DNA of 64,000 nt from Deltaproteobacteria bacterium (GCA_023265625.1 JAHFST010000001.1:285265-349264), one strand, 5' to 3'; positions 1 through 7,553 are shown, counted from the stretch's first letter. The notes: generated by a model not told the origin, from the sequence alone. Numbers and translations are program-made.

Positions 1-615
1 GAGGCGGGATGGGAGGATCATGATGGCGACGGAATCTTAGACAAAGACGGCGTCCCGTTTAAATTTGAATTTTTAATCCCCTCCGGCCGCCGTTCCGCCG
101 AGCAGGTGGCGACCATTCTCAAGGAAAATCTGAGAGGACAGGGAATCGACATGTCGATTCGGCAATTGGAGTGGGCCTTGTTCATCAAAAATTTGGATGA
201 TCGTAAGTTTGACGCTGTTACCCTGGGTTGGGTCTTTGGTTTTGATCAGGACCCGTATCAAGTCTGGCATTCCTCTCAGGTGAAGCAGGGCTCAAACTTT
301 GGCGGCTTCTCAGACCCGGAGGCCGACCGAATTATCGAGGCCGCCCGCGTTGAATTCGACGACGCCAAACGCAATCAGCTGTACCGGCGCTTTCACCAAC
401 TGGTCGATGAGATTCAGCCTTACTCGTTTCTCTATTCCACACCTTCTTTAGTGGCCTTGCATCGCCGCTTTGAGAATGTTCAGGTCTATCCCGGTGGGAT
501 GGATCCGCTGGAATGGCGGGTGAGGGGGGAGCTTAGTGGGGATGTTTCTTGGAGGAGCGCCGATCCAGGATTGCCAATGATACTGCAATCAGCGCAACCA
601 CCCAAGCTCCAATGA
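1..615 (+). CDS. ABC transporter peptide-binding protein, C-terminal part
   Basis: The reading frame is open from the first base, so only the C-terminal part (about 204 residues) of the gene is present. It begins with a WEDHDGDGILDKDG stretch followed by FKFEFLIPSG, which is typical of the C-terminal lobe of family 5 (OppA/DppA type) extracellular solute-binding proteins. This family delivers oligopeptides or similar ligands to an ABC permease from the periplasm. Later segments (DAVTLGWVFGFDQDPYQVWHS, then a PYSFLYS segment) also fit the family. The last 30 or so residues after DPLEWRVRG look unlike the usual family end and may reflect a late frameshift. Signal peptide and N-terminal lobe lie outside the window. 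Confidence 0.85.
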   Translation, partial: EAGWEDHDGDGILDKDGVPFKFEFLIPSGRRSAEQVATILKENLRGQGIDMSIRQLEWALFIKNLDDRKFDAVTLGWVFGFDQDPYQVWHSSQVKQGSNFGGFSDPEADRIIEAARVEFDDAKRNQLYRRFHQLVDEIQPYSFLYSTPSLVALHRRFENVQVYPGGMDPLEWRVRGELSGDVSWRSADPGLPMILQSAQPPKLQ

Positions 616-969: not shown

Positions 970-1911
970 TCAGGAATGAAGAGATTCTAAATACCGCTCA
1001 GCATCCAGTGCCGCCATGCAACCACTGCCGGAGGCGGTGATGGCTTGGCGGTAGACGTGGTCTTGGACGTCGCCGCAGGCGAAGACGCCGGGGACGTTGG
1101 TTTTGCTGCCGTCGTGGGTCAGGAGGTAGCCGTTTTTGTCGCTCTCGATTTGACCCGAGAAAAGTTTGGTATTGGGATCGTGCCCGATGGCGACAAACAG
1201 ACCGGTCAGGTCGACGGTCTTTTCTTGGTTGGTCTTGAAATCTTTGATACGAACTCCAGTCACTTCTTTGTCTCCCAAGACCTCGGTGACCGCGGCATTC
1301 CAGATGAACTCGATTTTTTTATTGGCAAAGGCGCGTTCTTGCATGATCTTGGAGGCCCGGAGTTGGTCGCGCCGATGGATCACATAGACCTTGCTGGCAA
1401 AGCGCGTCAGAAAGTTGGCCTCTTCCATGGCGGAATCGCCACCCCCGACCACGGCAATGTTCTGATTGCGAAAAAAAGCCCCGTCACAGGTGGCACAGGT
1501 CGAAACCCCATGCCCCATCAGTCGTTTTTCCGATTCTAGACCGATCAGTCGTGCGGAGGCGCCGGTGGAGATGATGACCGCCTTGGCCTCATATTTCTGG
1601 TCCCCGACCCAGACGGCGTGGGTGGGCGGGGTCACCCCGCCCCTACACAACTCAACGCGTGTGACATCCTGTGTGATAAAACGGGTGCCAAATCGTTCCG
1701 CCTGTTTACGAAAATTTTCCATTAATTCCGGACCCATGATCCCGGTCGGAAACCCTGGATAGTTTTCCACCTCCGTCGTGAGCATGAGTTGACCACCGGA
1801 TTGATAACCCTCGATCATGAGGGGTTTTAAATCCGCACGACCGGTATAGATGGCGGCCGTGAGCCCGGCGGGGCCGGAGCCGATGATGATGATGTTTTCG
1901 ATGTTGGGCAT
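970..1911 (-). CDS. trxB: thioredoxin reductase
   Basis: 313 residues, normal for TrxB, which reduces thioredoxin with NADPH using FAD and a redox disulfide in the cytosol. The FAD-binding GSGPAG motif is at residues 11-16, the catalytic CATC at 139-142 followed by DG, the NADPH-binding GGGDSAMEE near 156, and the C-terminal FAD motif near [10 protein letters not shown]. The start at ATG 1911 leaves the FAD motif at the usual distance. Residues about 89-97 (CRGGVTPPT) are not part of the family pattern; they are encoded by a GC-rich palindromic repeat inserted in frame (1624-1646), in a surface strand region before VWVGDQ. The neighbouring DUF2442 gene is on the same strand but belongs to a different unit. 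Confidence 0.95.
1624..1646. repeat. palindromic repeat inside trxB
   Basis: GGGCGGGGT-C-ACCCCGCCC, followed by CTAC, is a perfect 9-bp inverted repeat. On the minus strand it begins GTAGGGGCGGGG, the same 5' end as the palindromes at 16954, 58679, 61833 and 62139. It lies in frame within trxB and adds residues foreign to the family. Confidence 0.75.
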
Positions 1912-1917
1912 AGTGTG

Positions 1918-2181
1918 TTATTTTTTGAAGGTTAGTGGATAGTGTTCCGGATGTTCCAAAGATTCAAGCTCCAGATCAACATCTAGAGCAGGCCAATAGA
2001 GGTGATGAGACGCTGAAAATTCGAGGTGGTAGACATCCTTGACCCGAGCCTCTTGAAACCACGGAAAATCTCGGTATGAAAGAAAATGTTCCCGATCATT
2101 CACAAAAAGCCAGATGCCCTGGGGCGTGATCCCTTGGACCTCAGCTTTTGAAGTGCTTTTTCCAAGCGCCTGTGAGTTCAT
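1918..2181 (-). CDS. DUF2442 domain protein
   Basis: 87 residues from ATG 2181 (a longer frame would need a TTG inside the IS element). The core ITPQGIWLFVNDREHFLSYRDFPWF followed by HHLYWPALDVDLELESLEHPE is the DUF2442 signature. Function is unknown; genes of this family usually follow a DUF4160 gene, sometimes in toxin-antitoxin-like pairs. Here the expected DUF4160 partner lies at 4838-5002, separated by the IS1-family element whose left end abuts the target duplication at 2179-2186. Before insertion the DUF4160 stop and this ATG would have overlapped (ATGA). Expression is now probably uncoupled from its original promoter. Confidence 0.85.
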   Translation of the reverse strand: MNSQALGKSTSKAEVQGITPQGIWLFVNDREHFLSYRDFPWFQEARVKDVYHLEFSASHHLYWPALDVDLELESLEHPEHYPLTFKK

Positions 2182-2186
2182 AAAAT
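2179..2186. repeat. target-site duplication, left copy
   Basis: CATAAAAT immediately precedes the element and is repeated in direct orientation at 4851-4858. An 8-9 bp duplication is normal for IS1-family insertion. The next base (G) also matches on both sides, so 9 bp is possible. Confidence 0.85.
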
Positions 2187-2203
2187 GGTAGTGTCCTAAT
2201 TTG
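2187..2203 (+). repeat. IS terminal inverted repeat, left
   Basis: 17 bp, GGTAGTGTCCTAATTTG. The stop codon of the 54-aa cargo gene (2196-2198) lies inside it. Confidence 0.88.
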
Positions 2204-2360
2204 ATTTCTTGATCTGAAACCAGAAATAAGTCAGGCCAAGTGACAATAACGATGCTCCTACCCAAAATTTTTCTCCTTCGTCATCAGAAAAAAAGATTAC
2301 GACGCTAACCGAAATGAATAAGAAAGCGGCAAAAGTGGGGATAACTTTGAAGATTTTCAT
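2196..2360 (-). CDS. 54-aa membrane protein, IS cargo
   Basis: The product begins MKIFKVIPTFAAFLF. It has two hydrophobic segments (residues about 6-24 and 34-48) separated by a charged SDDEGEKF turn, and ends QIKKSN. Its ATG lies two bases after the stop of the 99-aa gene, suggesting one transcript with the transposase. The final codons and stop are made by the terminal inverted repeat, so the gene fills the end of the element exactly. I do not recognise a family; a role in transposition control or a passenger function are both possible. Confidence 0.6.
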   Translation of the reverse strand: MKIFKVIPTFAAFLFISVSVVIFFSDDEGEKFWVGASLLSLGLTYFWFQIKKSN

Positions 2361-2362
2361 GG

Positions 2363-2662
2363 TCAATTCAATTTCCTCACCGCATTCACAATAGAAGCCT
2401 GAACCGCCGTCTTTGGGCTATCAACGGGCGGGATCTCTAGCACAGTCACAAAGCACGTGTCATTATCTCCTTCACCCTCCTTGTGGCTCCATGCGTAACA
2501 TCGCTTGGCTTTCGGGTGTCCTTCAATAGAAAATACTTCCACCGTCCCATTCCAAACAGTCTGGCCCTTAAAAACTTCATGAATAGGCACGGATTCAAGA
2601 TACTCTGCATCGCATCCGTGAAGGCGTTTTATCGCTTCTTGCAATGACTCGATGTAACTCAT
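2363..2662 (-). CDS. 99-aa protein coupled to IS1 transposase
   Basis: The start codon overlaps the transposase stop (TAATG), so it is probably translated by reinitiation on the transposase message. The sequence (LQEAIKRLHGC, then HPKAKRCYAWSH, FVTVLEIPPVDSPKTAVQASIV) is compact and soluble with no membrane segment. I recall similar small proteins beside IS1-like transposases but cannot name a domain. Its position inside the element between transposase and terminal repeat makes it either an accessory factor or a passenger. Confidence 0.65.
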   Translation of the reverse strand: MSYIESLQEAIKRLHGCDAEYLESVPIHEVFKGQTVWNGTVEVFSIEGHPKAKRCYAWSHKEGEGDNDTCFVTVLEIPPVDSPKTAVQASIVNAVRKLN

Positions 2663-3486
2663 TATCCGTTACACATATCAACAAGATCACCCACAGTCCA
2701 GAGCGTAGGTGTCACTCCCGCTGCCATTGCGGGGGTTGTTCTCAATGTCTTGTGGATCTTCACGAAATTGTAATACACAAAATGAAGGGCAACCGCCGCC
2801 TTGAAGTTTTCCAGCTTCTTGCTGAAAGCGTTTGTGAGGCGGGTCAACCTTCGGCAGTGCATTCTCATGGTGAGGTTTTGTCGCTCCACATAAGAGGTGG
2901 AAATGTTATCAACAGAGGGATTCCCGGCAATAACGTTCTTTTCGATCCTCACCACTTCGGGAGGGCTGTACCTACCTTGCGGGGTTCCTTCGGCGGTTGA
3001 GAAGGTCTTTACGATTTGAGCGTAATCCACTTCACTTCCGAAGCCTCGCTCGACTGCCTCAATATAGGCTCTCAACCCATCCGTAGAAATTTGAGGCCGG
3101 TTTTTGAGGCGGCTGGAAAGGTCTTCGACGAAAGCGTTTGCCGTCTCCGCGTCTCTCTTGCCGACTTTGAAACAAGGGACAACTTTGGAGTCGGAATCAA
3201 TAGCAACGAATGTCCAAGCATCGCCAACCCCTATTTCTCCCTCTTGAACATTCTTTTGTTTTTTACCGATGAAACCCCAAATCTCGTCGAGTTGGAGTTG
3301 ATCGCAAGAAAGGTCTCTCATTTTTTCATCAAGAATCTTTTGGCATTTCTCCCCGATCCTCACACCCAAGCGCATAATGCTATCGCGGTGAATTCCCGTC
3401 ATCCTTTCGATGGAACGAATAGCTGTTCCTTCTGCCAGCGCTCCGATCACTGTCACTTGTTTATCTTTGGGAAGAACGTTTGCCAT
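2662..3486 (-). CDS. IS1-family transposase
   Basis: 274 residues in one uninterrupted frame, unlike classical IS1, which needs a frameshift between InsA and InsB. The N-terminal region (VIGALAEGTAIRSIERMTGIHRDSIMRLG) is a helix-turn-helix, followed by acidic catalytic candidates in LDEIWGF, AIDSDSK and STDGLRAY, and the very typical SYVERQNLTMRMHCRRLTRL ... AFSKKLENFKAAVALHFVYYNF segment of the IS1 DDE domain. It should cut and join the 17-bp ends of the element. A GAGGGG ribosome binding site precedes ATG 3486, and a TTGACT-17-TACAAA promoter lies upstream, overlapped by a palindrome. Confidence 0.93.
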   Translation of the reverse strand: MANVLPKDKQVTVIGALAEGTAIRSIERMTGIHRDSIMRLGVRIGEKCQKILDEKMRDLSCDQLQLDEIWGFIGKKQKNVQEGEIGVGDAWTFVAIDSDSKVVPCFKVGKRDAETANAFVEDLSSRLKNRPQISTDGLRAYIEAVERGFGSEVDYAQIVKTFSTAEGTPQGRYSPPEVVRIEKNVIAGNPSVDNISTSYVERQNLTMRMHCRRLTRLTNAFSKKLENFKAAVALHFVYYNFVKIHKTLRTTPAMAAGVTPTLWTVGDLVDMCNG

Positions 3487-3511
3487 GACAACCCCTCTTT
3501 CTTATAGACTT

Positions 3512-3551
3512 TTTGTAATACAATAAGTAAGTTTAGTCAACACTTATTGTA
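3512..3551 (-). promoter_or_regulatory. transposase promoter with overlapping operator
   Basis: On the minus strand TTGACT (3535-3540), a 17-bp spacer and TACAAA (3512-3517) make a good sigma-70 promoter for the transposase. A 10-bp inverted repeat, TACAATAAGT (3519-3528) and ACTTATTGTA (3542-3551), brackets the -35 box and touches the ATG of the divergent small DNA-binding protein. This layout suggests that the small protein represses the transposase and perhaps itself. Confidence 0.65.
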
Positions 3552-3745
3552 TGACAGAAAGTAAAAAAATGGGGAGGCCAAAACTTCCTAAAAATAAGGC
3601 AAAGGACAGCGTGTTCACTCTTCGACTAAGTGAAGAGGAGAGGACGAGCCTAGAACAAGCGGCTAAAAGCGAAGGACTAACTCCGTCGGAGTTTGCCAGA
3701 ATCGTATTGCAAAAAGCTTCAACTCGTATTAAACGTATTACATAA
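3551..3745 (+). CDS. ribbon-helix-helix-like protein, candidate repressor
   Basis: 64 residues. A basic tail (KKMGRPKLPKNKAK) is followed by SVFTLRLSEEERTSLEQAAKSEGLTPSEFARIVLQKA, which matches the strand-helix-helix pattern of Arc/CopG-type DNA-binding proteins. It is divergent from the transposase and its ATG abuts a palindrome that overlaps the transposase promoter. No ribosome binding site precedes the first ATG, so the message may be leaderless, or translation may start at ATG 3569. Predicted role: transcriptional control of the element. An antitoxin without a toxin is the alternative. Confidence 0.65.
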   Translation: MTESKKMGRPKLPKNKAKDSVFTLRLSEEERTSLEQAAKSEGLTPSEFARIVLQKASTRIKRIT

Positions 3746-3750
3746 AGTTA

Positions 3751-3844
3751 CGGAGGCCACGGGAGTCGAACCCCTTCGCTGCTATAACAGCGAGTCCTAG
3801 GCGTGTAAAAGGCCGTTAGTCACCCACGTGAAGGAATGGCCCCC
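3751..3844 (-). ncRNA. tRNA-like RNA inside the IS element
   Basis: On the minus strand GGGGGCC pairs with the distal GGCCTCC plus a discriminator G, an acceptor-like stem. Next to it is a T arm with TTCGACT loop (stem with one G-G mismatch), and a 6-bp hairpin TCGCTG/CAGCGA sits where the long variable arm of class II tRNAs lies. The 94-nt length also fits class II. The anticodon region (GGCCTTTTACACGCC) does not make a proper 5-bp stem with a 7-base loop, and the D arm is irregular. TATACT lies 6 bases upstream, placing a start site at the first G. It may be a decayed tRNA or a tRNA-mimicking RNA; no anticodon is assigned. Confidence 0.45.
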
Positions 3845-3866
3845 ATAACAGTATATGTAGGACCTT

Positions 3867-3912
3867 CCACCCCTAGAGGGCCGGTTTAGCGGCCAAGACC
3901 CTCTAGGGGTGG
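3867..3912. repeat. 14-bp perfect inverted repeat
   Basis: CCACCCCTAGAGGG and CCCTCTAGGGGTGG are separated by 18 bases that contain a further GGCCG/CGGCC pairing. It lies just upstream (minus strand) of the tRNA-like RNA and downstream of the 243-aa gene. No T-run follows on either strand, so a simple terminator is unlikely. Confidence 0.7.
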
Positions 3913-3997
3913 TCTCATTTGATGTCGTTGCGCGCTTAGGGACGATCCATTTCAGCCATTCGCGCTTTAAACTGATACCATTAGGTATCCTCCAAAA

Positions 3998-4729
3998 TTA
4001 TTTTTTTATAACAGTCCATTTTTTTGATGTCCCCTTCTGCCTAACCCTATGTTCATCTCTCATCACAAATAGATCCGCCTTAATGAGATCTTTGGAAAGT
4101 GGTGTTTTAAGCCACTTCACTTCCTTTAAGTCCCTATAAATCTGCATTAATTGCATCCCATCATGACTTGTATCCAGCAGATACCTGACCGCCATTCTTC
4201 TAAAGGCAGCTAAATCCTGTTTCTGTAGAAGAGATTTTGGCGCCCAAATATAGTCTTCGCAAAGAATGGGCGCTTTTACTCCTTCTTTAAGTGACCATCC
4301 GCGCTCCGTCCTTTGAATTACCTTATCGTCTAGTTGCGTCCCAAGATTTGATACGCTCCCTTCATTTGCGTCAGGGAGAATTTGTTTAACTTGGGCAATC
4401 AACTCTTTAACCGGAATTGACACCCCTTGGTTTAGAAGGGCCAAAACAACCGTGCGAAGCGCCGCCTCCTTTTTATCGAGCCAAAACCAGTCCCCGCTTG
4501 CCTCTTTAGGCATAGAAGGCTTGTCGGGAGGAGGGATCGTCATTCGCTTTGGCTGACTTCTGGCAGCCCCAACCTGACTTGGGTATTCCGTAAGAGAGCG
4601 CTTTAAAGTATCAGGAACCGGAATGCCCTCCTGTTCAAAGATCGTCCACACTTTCTTCCCTTCTTCTATCCAGCGAAGAAACGCTTGATAGGCTTTCGCT
4701 TCGGGCGGAAGGTAGGATTCATCAGTCAT
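3998..4729 (-). CDS. unknown 243-aa protein, IS cargo
   Basis: First gene of the element when read on the minus strand. The N-terminal 75 residues are helical and charged (AYQAFLRWIEEGKKVWTIFEQEG), then a proline-rich linker leads to a region of winged-helix character (AALRTVVLALLNQGVSIPVKELIAQVKQIL ... IQRTERGWSLKEG) and a second basic C-terminal region ending KKWTVIKK. Two winged-helix-like modules would suit a DNA-binding protein, but this is inference from pattern only; I do not recognise a named family. It is AT-richer than the host genes. It could serve target choice, regulation or a passenger role. Confidence 0.6.
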   Translation of the reverse strand: MTDESYLPPEAKAYQAFLRWIEEGKKVWTIFEQEGIPVPDTLKRSLTEYPSQVGAARSQPKRMTIPPPDKPSMPKEASGDWFWLDKKEAALRTVVLALLNQGVSIPVKELIAQVKQILPDANEGSVSNLGTQLDDKVIQRTERGWSLKEGVKAPILCEDYIWAPKSLLQKQDLAAFRRMAVRYLLDTSHDGMQLMQIYRDLKEVKWLKTPLSKDLIKADLFVMRDEHRVRQKGTSKKWTVIKK

Positions 4730-4833
4730 ACCTGTTCGATATCACTTCACCTACCCGTCGTCAAGGGTGTGATATGATTTTTTGGGGTGAAGTTTGATTT
4801 TAAGGGGACTGAATATGGGAGGGCTTAAAGCGG

Positions 4834-4850
4834 CAAATTAGGACACTGCC
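4834..4850 (-). repeat. IS terminal inverted repeat, right
   Basis: 17 bp matching the left end with one mismatch. The reading frame of the interrupted DUF4160 gene runs into it and stops at its TAA (4838-4840). Confidence 0.88.
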
Positions 4851-5002
4851 CATAAAATGTAATTCTGTGCCAATGCGACCAAAGGTTCAAGCCAAAACTT
4901 GGCTTCGCCGTCAGGACAGGCGACATGGACATGCATCCTTGTTTCTTCCCTGGAAAAGAAGAAGAACCGGTAGTTTTTGTAACGCAGTATGGTAGGGCTC
5001 AT
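4838..5002 (-). CDS. DUF4160 protein with IS-altered C-terminus
   Basis: The first 50 residues (MSPTILRYKNYRFFFFSREE, then MHVHVACPDGEAKFWLEP) are DUF4160; the last four (WAVS) come from the IS end. Without the element the frame would end IL-stop, with the TGA overlapping the ATG of the DUF2442 gene now at 2181. The protein therefore remains almost intact, but its operon partner is 2.66 kb away. DUF4160 has no established function. The rest of the 4741-5090 interval contains only the outer 120 bp of the element and AT-rich upstream sequence in which I see no further gene. Confidence 0.75.
   Translation of the reverse strand: MSPTILRYKNYRFFFFSREETRMHVHVACPDGEAKFWLEPLVALAQNYILWAVS
4851..4858. 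repeat. target-site duplication, right copy
   Basis: CATAAAAT, identical to 2179-2186 and directly flanking the right end of the element. Confidence 0.85.
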
Positions 5003-5090
5003 AAAAGAGAAACGGGAATAGCACTTTGATTTTTTCTAGGCAACTTTTTCCGGAGGATGACGATAATCCTCATACAAATCGGGAGCGTGC

Positions 5091-7553
5091 ATGTCCACTG
5101 CTATTCTTACCTGCGGATTCATTAAAATGGCCCCAGTCGTTGATTTTCTGAACGGACTGGCTCCAGTTCCATTGGGTCGCGTCCTAGGCCAGGCGGTGGA
5201 GCAACTTCGTATTCAAGGGGACCCGGTTTCTTTGGAACGGGCCGGTCGATTGGAAACATTGGCGCAAGACGGCTCAGTTGATTTTGCAAGCATTCAGGCT
5301 GAACCTGAGCTGCTACGTGCCCTTTGGGCGCCGGGGGTCCATGCCTTGTTGCGCAGGCAGGGGGATCAGGTTCTGGCGGAGGTTCTTGACGAAACTCCCT
5401 ATCTGGACGAGCCGGAACTGATGGCAGCCTTGGAGGATTGCGATGACCAGCAACGCGTGGCTATTTTGGAGGCGATGCTTCGTCAGGTGGAGATGAGGGA
5501 CAGGGTGGTTGAACAGGATTTGATTCCCATGGAGATAGGAGCGCTGGCGCACTCCGGCGGGGATATGGATGCGGTGGTGATGGCCTTATTGGCCCAGGCT
5601 TATTCTCTTCGGGATGCTCGGCAAGGATCTGATTCTTCCCAGGGAACGTTCATGATGGCGGTCATGAGTCGTCCCCGTGTGGTGCACGATACGGATGCCA
5701 GGGGGCAGGATGTAGAACGCTTAGTGGGTGGTGTGGATGCGGTTCGTTACACCGCTGGGCGCCAGAAACGTCATTTGCCGCTTCATGGGATGCGTGTGCC
5801 TTATCGGACGACGGCCCTGCCGTTGGAATGCCTGGATGCTGTGGTGGGTCGTTTCGCCCTTCACGTTTTTACCCCCACGGCGCAGCAGATAGAATCAGCG
5901 ATGACTTCTGGGCTGATTGCGAAGATGTGCACAGGGGCATTGCTTGTTTACGGGCCCAAGTCATTTAGTCAAAGTGGCCAAGATGTCGACCAATGGATGG
6001 AGCATGTTTGCGATTTGGCAGCGAGGCCAGATATTGGAACCGGTTTTCTGGCTGGATACACAGGGGCCAAGGCCGTCTTGCAAAAGAGATTGCCCGAGCT
6101 GGATGGCACGGGGGGCGCTCGTGGCCTGGATCTGGGGCTAGGGGTTAATCACTTGCAACAGGGTTTGGCCCTGGCCTCACTCTTGACGGGTGTGGCCATC
6201 GAGGATGCCGAAATTAAAACGTTACCGGGAGGGGCAAATATTCATGTGTTTACCAATCTTGCCATGCCTATTTCTCTCCGGATCTCCGTGTATGATGACG
6301 CCGATCTGCGACGGACCCAGCGGCTGTTTGCCATCTACAAAAATGTGTATTCCTGTATTATTTTCAAGGAGCTCTATGCCTGGATCTGGCATGCACTGGA
6401 ACAGAACGGGGGAGAACTATCAGACTCGATAGTCAGGGACGCAGAATGTCGCCATGCAGAATTGATGCAGGAATCAGAGGTAGACATTGTTAAAATTATC
6501 ACGGAAGTGGAAGGGATGGATCCGGATAAGGCGGTCGTACTAGGTCTCTCTTTGAAGGATGCCCGTGAGAGTTGGCGGGTCAAGAAAATGCCGTTGTTGA
6601 TCCAATTGATTCGGAACCTGTTTTTTGCCAGTTATGAAAAACAGACCGTGGAGGGCATTGAGCGTTGGCGACTCAATTCCGCTAAGGTAAGGATAGCGAT
6701 CGATGAATGGTTAGCCCAAGTTACCGATGCGGTGGCGACCCGAAACCCTGTGGCGGGGATCTCGGTGCCTGCGAGCCGTGATGCGGTTCGCTACGGTTTG
6801 GCGACCAGTCTGAGTGCCTTGCGGCCCAAAGATATGACCTTTGAGGCCATGACCACGCTCTCGCGCCTCCTGATCCGACTTTCTGCCGACCAAATAGAAC
6901 GGATGCCAAACAGGATGAAGACCTTTATTGCGGAGGCCCGCCAGATGACGGTACCCCAGGTGATCCCTCCGGAGATTCGGGAAGACCTGGCAGATCTGGC
7001 TGGTTTCATCGCCAAGGCGATGGCTGGGAGAACTCCCTCGGCCGAGGAAGCCCATGCCTTTTTTCATGAGGCTATTTCGCAACGTACCCTGACCGGGTCG
7101 ACACGTTGGAAGGTGAGTACGGCAGAATTTTTTCTCCAGGCGGTTGACTCTTTGAAAAAACATCTGCAGATAGCCATGAGTTTGATTGACACCTATGGCC
7201 CCCAACATGCCAAACTTGCCGCGCCTTACCTGAGTCAGATGAAGGCCATGGTGACTAACATGGACCGGTTACTCGAAGCGACCCGTCGGGCGAATGGAAA
7301 AAAAGTTTTGCAACCGACTGAGATACGCATGCTCCTGGTCGCTTTAAAGGGATTGCTTGGTGAAGGCGATCGAATCTACGTGGGCGAAGAAGGCGGATCA
7401 GGGCAGGGTGTTGGAGAATCTTTCGCGGCGGTCATGACCGACCTTGGGGCGCGGATGGCGCTCATTTTTGCCTATCTGGACAGTGACGATCGTTCCGGGA
7501 GATTTCCTTACCCCACTGGCTACGGCCGATTTTTAGAGGTTCGACCCCAGTAG
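5091..7553 (+). CDS. large unknown protein (820 aa)
   Basis: Start at ATG 5091 is supported by GGGAG eight bases upstream; ATG 5127 is an alternative. No signal peptide or membrane helix is evident and the composition is that of a soluble, mostly helical protein. A central stretch (residues about 370-440, including LPGGANIHVFTNLAMPISLRISVYDDADL) looks beta-rich, and the C-terminal 150 residues are helical before a short GRFPYPTGYGRFLEV tail. Codon use is like the housekeeping genes. I do not recognise a family. The gene stands alone, followed by an AT-rich spacer. Confidence 0.7.
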   Translation: MSTAILTCGFIKMAPVVDFLNGLAPVPLGRVLGQAVEQLRIQGDPVSLERAGRLETLAQDGSVDFASIQAEPELLRALWAPGVHALLRRQGDQVLAEVLDETPYLDEPELMAALEDCDDQQRVAILEAMLRQVEMRDRVVEQDLIPMEIGALAHSGGDMDAVVMALLAQAYSLRDARQGSDSSQGTFMMAVMSRPRVVHDTDARGQDVERLVGGVDAVRYTAGRQKRHLPLHGMRVPYRTTALPLECLDAVVGRFALHVFTPTAQQIESAMTSGLIAKMCTGALLVYGPKSFSQSGQDVDQWMEHVCDLAARPDIGTGFLAGYTGAKAVLQKRLPELDGTGGARGLDLGLGVNHLQQGLALASLLTGVAIEDAEIKTLPGGANIHVFTNLAMPISLRISVYDDADLRRTQRLFAIYKNVYSCIIFKELYAWIWHALEQNGGELSDSIVRDAECRHAELMQESEVDIVKIITEVEGMDPDKAVVLGLSLKDARESWRVKKMPLLIQLIRNLFFASYEKQTVEGIERWRLNSAKVRIAIDEWLAQVTDAVATRNPVAGISVPASRDAVRYGLATSLSALRPKDMTFEAMTTLSRLLIRLSADQIERMPNRMKTFIAEARQMTVPQVIPPEIREDLADLAGFIAKAMAGRTPSAEEAHAFFHEAISQRTLTGSTRWKVSTAEFFLQAVDSLKKHLQIAMSLIDTYGPQHAKLAAPYLSQMKAMVTNMDRLLEATRRANGKKVLQPTEIRMLLVALKGLLGEGDRIYVGEEGGSGQGVGESFAAVMTDLGARMALIFAYLDSDDRSGRFPYPTGYGRFLEVRPQ

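Follow-up and report, generated by a model that had tools for sequence, protein, structure and literature searches.

The allo-tRNAs are the closest described counterparts of the RNA discussed here. They come as 9/3 and 8/4 types (Mukai 2017, reviewed in PMC7609411), and 9/3 species have been derived from raw metagenome reads (PMC7590224). Ochre anticodons have been reported for 9/3 allo-tRNAs, some allo-tRNAs insert alanine or serine in Escherichia coli, and an allo-tRNA pseudogene in Edaphobacter overlaps a transposon-related open reading frame (ORF). Irregular tRNAs also occur in polycistrons, and a link to transposons or toxin-antitoxin systems has been guessed (PMC7609411). Our analysis of 64,000 nucleotides of DNA from a Deltaproteobacteria bacterium (GCA_023265625.1, JAHFST010000001.1:285265-349264; the whole stretch is called "the window") produced a 9/3 tRNA gene that lies, with a hairpin upstream, inside an IS1-like transposon. 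The element is real and of a known kind, and it carries an unusual conserved RNA passenger.

Allo-tRNAs have been described before; what appears to be new is that they occupy a fixed position within a delimited group of transposons. Our literature search, which may be incomplete, produced no paper that places 9/3 allo-tRNAs in defined IS1-like elements. RNAs known mainly from raw metagenome reads thereby gain a genomic address with precise ends, neighbours and a phylogeny, where a transposon link was previously merely suspected.

The genes described here share with 9/3 allo-tRNAs the 9-bp acceptor and 3-bp T stems, the long variable arm and a body resembling selenocysteine (Sec) or serine tRNAs. 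The G3:U70 pair of some allo-tRNAs, their reported ochre anticodon and the one case overlapping a transposon ORF are further likenesses. In contrast to allo-tRNAs, these genes reside within delimited transposons that have ends, target duplications, the hairpin and a ribbon-helix-helix (RHH) gene; the D arm of the window gene is short (4 bp), and in sister elements the same loop also occurs on ordinary 7/5 bodies. Recoded phages carry suppressor tRNAs, and there too a stop-anticodon tRNA is borne by a mobile element; however, no recoded genes were found in the window element. Bacterial tRNA-Sec (RF01852) is the best Rfam family for four 9/3 sister genes, which it matches at full length with 31-34 bits. 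However, these four scores lie below the gathering score of 47, and the window gene has no match. The 9/3 genes also carry UUA or CUA, whereas tRNA-Sec has UCA and an 8/5 structure.

A 9/3 tRNA gene behind a hairpin

The window tRNA has the 9-bp acceptor stem, 3-bp T stem and long variable arm that characterize 9/3 allo-tRNAs. On the minus strand of positions 3752-3844, GGGGGCCAT...GTGGCCTCC forms a stem of 9 bp, and the 3-bp T stem with the loop TTCGACT adjoins it on the inner side. The variable arm is long in both the predicted fold and the covariance-model alignment. The anticodon loop, TTTTACA, holds a UUA (ochre) anticodon in canonical geometry. The gene has G3:U70 and G73 (at position 3751), and CCA is not encoded. 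A long, Sec-like D stem is a further trait of 9/3 allo-tRNAs; inspected by eye, the D stem comprises 4 bp (TCAC/GTGA) in the window gene and in sister locus L083, and 5 bp in L010 and L131 (L numbers denote loci).

A covariance model built solely from the sister genes in L010, L131, L351 and L083, with the window gene left out, gave a single match in the 64-kb window, at 3752-3844, with an E value of 1.1e-10. The DNA of this gene had no match among plasmid and phage records. The original prediction had described a complete IS1-family element with five protein genes; its transposase, regulator and cargo genes are present, but the tRNA gene, which is the principal conserved cargo, and the hairpin had escaped notice.

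Distribution and conservation of the tRNA

Relatives were collected by fetching 80 loci at 46-66% transposase identity and adding more from genomes and viruses. The 9/3 gene is also found within elements L010, L131 and L083, of which L083 is viral; in L351 it adjoins the transposase. When the genes from the window, L010, L131 and L083 are aligned, all 60 stem cells are paired and 13 are changed on both sides; with the partners slid as a control, at most 61% are paired. The perfect 12-bp acceptor branch with its loop occurs five times in 260 kb of elements, and is absent from 568 kb of flanks and from 2.6 Mb of shuffled sequence. When 162 Blastocatellia genomes were searched with the loop and T-arm pattern alone, three 9/3 genes were detected, all adjoining this transposase and an RHH gene. 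The density of tRNAs called by ARAGORN is not raised inside the elements (6 in 260 kb, versus 14 in 568 kb of flanks); the case rests on this special tRNA class.

At a comparable place, nine loci (L004, L006, L008, L011, L012, L124, L128, L129 and L212) have tRNAs with ordinary 7/5 bodies. On the viral contig of L151, a tRNA with UUA, C37, G3:U70 and the hairpin (154-228, minus strand) lies 686 bp outside the called element ends, and may be left over from an earlier insertion. Thus, such a tRNA is present at 15 loci. Read in canonical loop geometry, 13 of the 15 anticodons match stop codons: nine are UUA (window, L010, L131, L351, L006, L008, L011, L212 and L151) and four are CUA (L083, L004, L128 and L129). 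All 15 tRNAs have C37 and A38, and ten have G3:U70 (window, L004, L008, L011, L124, L128 and L212, and by eye L012, L129 and L151). Pairing of the anticodon stem is better in the stop frame than in the valine frame shifted by one base. Our by-eye readings of L010 (AAGGT[CTTTACA]CCCTG) and L131 (AAGGC[CTTTACA]CCCTG), with three pairs in the stop frame, make this preference stronger. In 12 of 14 cases, the tRNA is preceded at a distance of 2-33 nt by a perfect hairpin of 9-15 bp, mostly with a loop of 17-21 nt; among random stretches, 6% hold an inverted repeat of at least 9.

When mapped onto a tree of 41 transposase rows, the presence of the tRNA changes 6 times, compared with 12.4 times for shuffled labels, and one of 500 shuffles was as low. 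The tRNA is spread over deep branches of the tree and is absent from a branch of 15 rows, mainly Terriglobia. This clustering, coupled with the spread over deep branches, suggests that the association of tRNA and element is old and was later lost in the acidobacterial branch, although contig ends truncate some of the rows that lack the tRNA (L002 and L084). Recurring across bacterial phyla and viruses, the unit of hairpin and tRNA looks like a long-kept working part, not accidental baggage. We consider it probable that the element is built as described here and that the tRNA is a maintained part of it, a judgement that excludes any suppression step.

The loop motif is not diagnostic by itself, as 173 of 185 viral-contig matches were ordinary tRNA-Val(UAC). 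Several other tRNA-like genes were seen in the group. A planctomycete element has a second one (L212:4540-4610, plus strand; GGGCGGA...TCCGTCC-ACCA) with a non-standard T loop, which starts 79 nt upstream of the first; this tandem array is similar to the polycistrons reported for allo-tRNAs. Six more distant elements (L014:4105-4180, L096:4811-4882, L047:4836-4910, L068:708-780, L133:2316-2389 and L209:4232-4320) carry tRNAs whose bodies, by eye, are Arg- or Leu-like and whose anticodons are those for other amino acids (ACU, GCU, CGC, UCC). In Tsuneonella rigui (L018, L019, L021 and L022), a tRNA-Gly-like gene precedes the transposase by about 130 bp in several copies; its anticodon stem is disturbed and it has the loop region TTTTTCCCAAT.

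Possible roles of the tRNA

An old core of these elements would consist of the transposase, a 99-aa protein, an RHH regulator and a two-part RNA gene made of hairpin and tRNA. It is established that G3:U70 is the identity element for alanine and that G73 together with a long variable arm is suited to seryl-tRNA synthetase (SerRS). The same features, G3:U70 for alanine and the long variable arm with G73 for SerRS, are used for allo-tRNAs too (PMC7609411). From these identity elements, the RNA would be charged by the seryl- and/or alanyl-tRNA synthetases of the host. Because serine and alanine identity elements are combined with an ochre anticodon (ochre or amber in sister elements), we favour a role in suppression, with a probability of about 0.35: the tRNA may act as a weak, mobile nonsense suppressor that serves the element. 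Suppression would be weak because of C37 and the short anticodon stem. With the same probability, an IS1-like lineage in Acidobacteriota, Verrucomicrobiota, Planctomycetota, the small phylum of the host and viruses may have kept a dedicated suppressor tRNA (charged with alanine or serine, with UUA or CUA and C37) behind a hairpin as a core part, and may be the natural home of some metagenome allo-tRNAs.

Several observations weigh against this overall explanation. C37 would be a very unusual residue in a tRNA that works in translation, and in E. coli no activity was seen for the allo-tRNA type reported from Edaphobacter beside a transposon ORF (PMC7609411). ARAGORN made no call for the window gene, and an Rfam scan made none either and found no credible RNA family in the window. 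Reading TAA as sense exposes no obvious split gene in the element. Two of the 15 tRNAs lack a stop anticodon (AUA in L012 and UUC in L124), and one whole branch of the transposon group lives without the tRNA. Finally, a loop of 8 nt (the 'Stop|Val', ttac call of ARAGORN) is a possible reading in L006 and L008.

The RNA may instead be a tRNA mimic outside translation, which is nearly as likely as suppression. Hairpin and tRNA fold would then serve regulation or processing, for example through RNase P or RNase Z cleavage or protein binding, and thus control expression of the transposase or the cargo. The conserved hairpin upstream, the weak anticodon stems, the invariant C37 and the inactivity in E. 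coli of similar allo-tRNAs near transposon ORFs are consistent with such a mimic. So is the gene order in L008, L128, L129, L212 and L124, where the tRNA directly precedes the transposase and has the same orientation. However, a mimic needs neither a near-invariant stop-type anticodon nor the canonical T loop present in most of these tRNAs. Nor does it need aminoacylation identity elements, which are preserved as G3:U70 in ten of the tRNAs and as the long arm with G73 in the 9/3 ones. The 8-nt loop could alternatively point to four-base or shifted decoding, in which an RNA with the anticodon NUAC or UAC reads GUA or causes +1 frameshifts. In favour of this explanation are the ttac calls in L006 and L008, the A that invariably follows UAC, as is usual at the position 3' of an anticodon, and the viral tRNAs that have this loop, most of which are tRNA-Val(UAC). 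We nevertheless judge it unlikely: the 7-nt stop frame gives the best stem pairing, the valine frame breaks U33 in L083, L004, L128 and L012, and N34 is mostly U or C, as expected for decoding of stop codons.

Mismatches in the anticodon stem and loss of the canonical T loop in L012 might instead indicate a recently captured host tRNA that is decaying and useless to the element. This explanation is already disfavoured by covariation, and we regard it as very unlikely. Compensatory changes extend across divergent elements, the covariance-model match has an E value of 1e-10, the tRNA is clustered on the transposase tree, and the host genome has no second copy or close relative of the gene.

If the favoured reading as a suppressor is true, with the RNA charged and decoding stop codons, each new host would receive its change in stop-codon reading from a small transposon. 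If the RNA is not charged or does not read stop codons, it would be a new regulatory RNA built on the tRNA fold. Either outcome makes the purpose of allo-tRNAs a directly testable question.

The transposon, its insertion site and its other genes

The features of the element and its flanks are collected in the table.

Table. Features of the transposon and the adjoining host genes, in coordinates of the window
Feature	Position	Strand	Basis
Host DUF2442 gene; start codon within duplicated target	1918..2181	-	Profile match, relatives
Left target duplication copy, 8 bp, CATAAAAT	2179..2186	.	Sequence
Left terminal inverted repeat, 17 bp, GGTAGTGTCCTAATTTG	2187..2203	+	Repeat search, 94%; end shared by sister elements
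Small membrane-type ORF, 56 aa from TTG or 54 aa from ATG; weak gene candidate	2196..2366	-	ORF call
99-aa accessory protein, conserved in most close elements	2363..2662	-	Recurrence in sister elements
IS1-like DDE transposase, 274 aa	2662..3486	-	Pfam, NCBIfam, alignment
Palindrome ACTTTTTGTAATACAATAAGT / ACTTATTGTATGACAGAAAGT between divergent RHH and transposase genes	3508..3562	.	Repeat search
RHH (CopG/NikA-like) regulator, 64 aa, 'GRPKLP' family common to sister elements	3551..3745	+	Profile match, sister comparison
9/3 allo-tRNA, 93 nt	3752..3844	-	Fold, alignment, independent covariance-model match
Hairpin, 14 bp, 18-nt loop, 22 nt upstream of tRNA	3867..3912	-	Repeat search; similar hairpin in most sisters
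Variable cargo protein, 243 aa, stop TAA	3998..4729	-	ORF call; low-confidence model; place shared with winged helix-turn-helix-type proteins of sisters
Right terminal inverted repeat, reverse complement GGCAGTGTCCTAATTTG	4834..4850	-	Repeat search
Right target duplication copy, 8 bp, CATAAAAT	4851..4858	.	Sequence
Host DUF4160 gene, 5' part; 3' tail about 2141-2180, about 50 nt missing between	4859..5002	-	Profile match, relatives

The element is a complete DDE transposon of IS1-like type and brings along a regulator and cargo. Its predicted ends (17-bp inverted repeats with one mismatch), 8-bp duplication and length all proved correct: the repeats agree at 16 of 17 positions, and positions 2187-4850 measure 2664 bp. 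The transposase would have moved the element by acting on these ends and duplicating 8 bp of target. Paired ends of the GGTAGTG type with 7-9 bp duplications were found in 84 of all loci, with lengths of 1859-5180 bp and a median of 3148 bp; therefore the pairing of ends and duplications is not due to chance. Passengers are the rule in this divergent IS1-like group. Thus, the cargo, which had seemed to go well beyond a minimal IS1, is not exceptional here. The transposase is present as a single copy in the 2.93-Mb host genome, and a close one is absent from the 45 other host-phylum genomes covered (best 51%). No close second copies were found in the host genome or phylum.

IS1 profiles recognize the transposase (Pfam DDE_Tnp_IS1, PF03400, E 3.6e-8, 34.3 bits, above the cut-off of 24.1), plasmid relatives are annotated as 'IS1 family transposase', and the imperfect GGTA-type ends and 8-9 bp duplications are also IS1-like. 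However, the match to NCBIfam IS1 (NF033558; 5e-18, 65.7 bits) is under its cut-off of 100. Classical IS1 is about 0.8 kb and has insA and insB joined by a -1 frameshift, whereas the transposase here, as in relatives, is one uninterrupted ORF of 274 aa in elements of 2-5 kb with passengers, tRNA and regulators. The element is accordingly filed as IS1-like, not as classical IS1. The candidate catalytic triad D97/D136/E201 is invariant across 13 aligned transposases.

The insertion site is less simple than the original prediction had proposed. When the flanks are joined with one duplication copy, they do yield a DUF4160 frame of 50 aa, with its TGA overlapping the ATG of DUF2442. However, this layout is found in none of eight host-phylum relatives with the same gene pair: their DUF4160 has 79 aa (one is truncated) and overlaps the DUF2442 start by ~38 nt. 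The joined flanks align with all eight save for a gap of ~50 nt exactly at the element, and the DNA of the supposed DUF2442 start also encodes a DUF4160 tail, ELTGAWKKHFKS. Because the relatives have the longer DUF4160 and the joined site has this gap, the alignment places the element within the 3' portion of DUF4160, immediately ahead of where DUF2442 starts, and indicates that ~50 nt of flank were lost before or after insertion. Thus, the element does sit in the DUF4160-DUF2442 pair, but the restored junction does not stand. That the insertion split an intact operon exactly as reconstructed is quite unlikely, despite the perfect duplication and the overlap on joining. The duplication stays good evidence of transposition.

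In the close group, the 99-aa gene usually follows the transposase, and a GRPKLP RHH gene lies nearby. The expectation that the gene set would recur between the same ends is correct for the transposase, 99-aa and RHH genes, which do so in other phyla, but not for the 243-aa protein, for which BLAST gave no relative among the fetched loci. Proteins of winged helix-turn-helix type occupy its position in sister elements. A structure model of the 243-aa protein made without an alignment has a low confidence (45.5) and hints at no more than a winged-helix core; a winged helix at about residues 86-147 is probable on this model. Read-through was considered and rejected: with TAA read as sense across the element, the 243-aa frame continues into the tRNA and the transposase gains an upstream extension, but no convincing split gene emerges. 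A defence role of the cargo was also rejected, as PADLOC gave no match for the window proteins. The palindrome is likely to contain the RHH operator and the promoter region, and the RHH protein would probably repress the divergent transposase promoter through it. The small membrane-type ORF has no relative in the fetched loci. For the 99-aa protein, a fold of alpha-beta4-alpha is predicted (pLDDT 92.9), with no match in the PDB, and the sequence has no Pfam or NCBIfam match. Its family is widespread, with 69 fetched locus records matching.

Four Terriglobia-type elements (L186:538-3084, L204:3990-5825, L205:3948-5828 and L207:4104-5801; loci turned to put the transposase on the plus strand) have a transposase frame that is open far upstream, for 565-848 codons in total, which looks as though a cargo domain had been joined to the transposase or were translated in the same frame. 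The L083 element (1809-5564) resides on a 138-kb contig that is predicted to be viral, and in it a helix-turn-helix-ImmA/IrrE (RmrA-like) gene and its partner adjoin the tRNA; from this location, phages may spread these elements.

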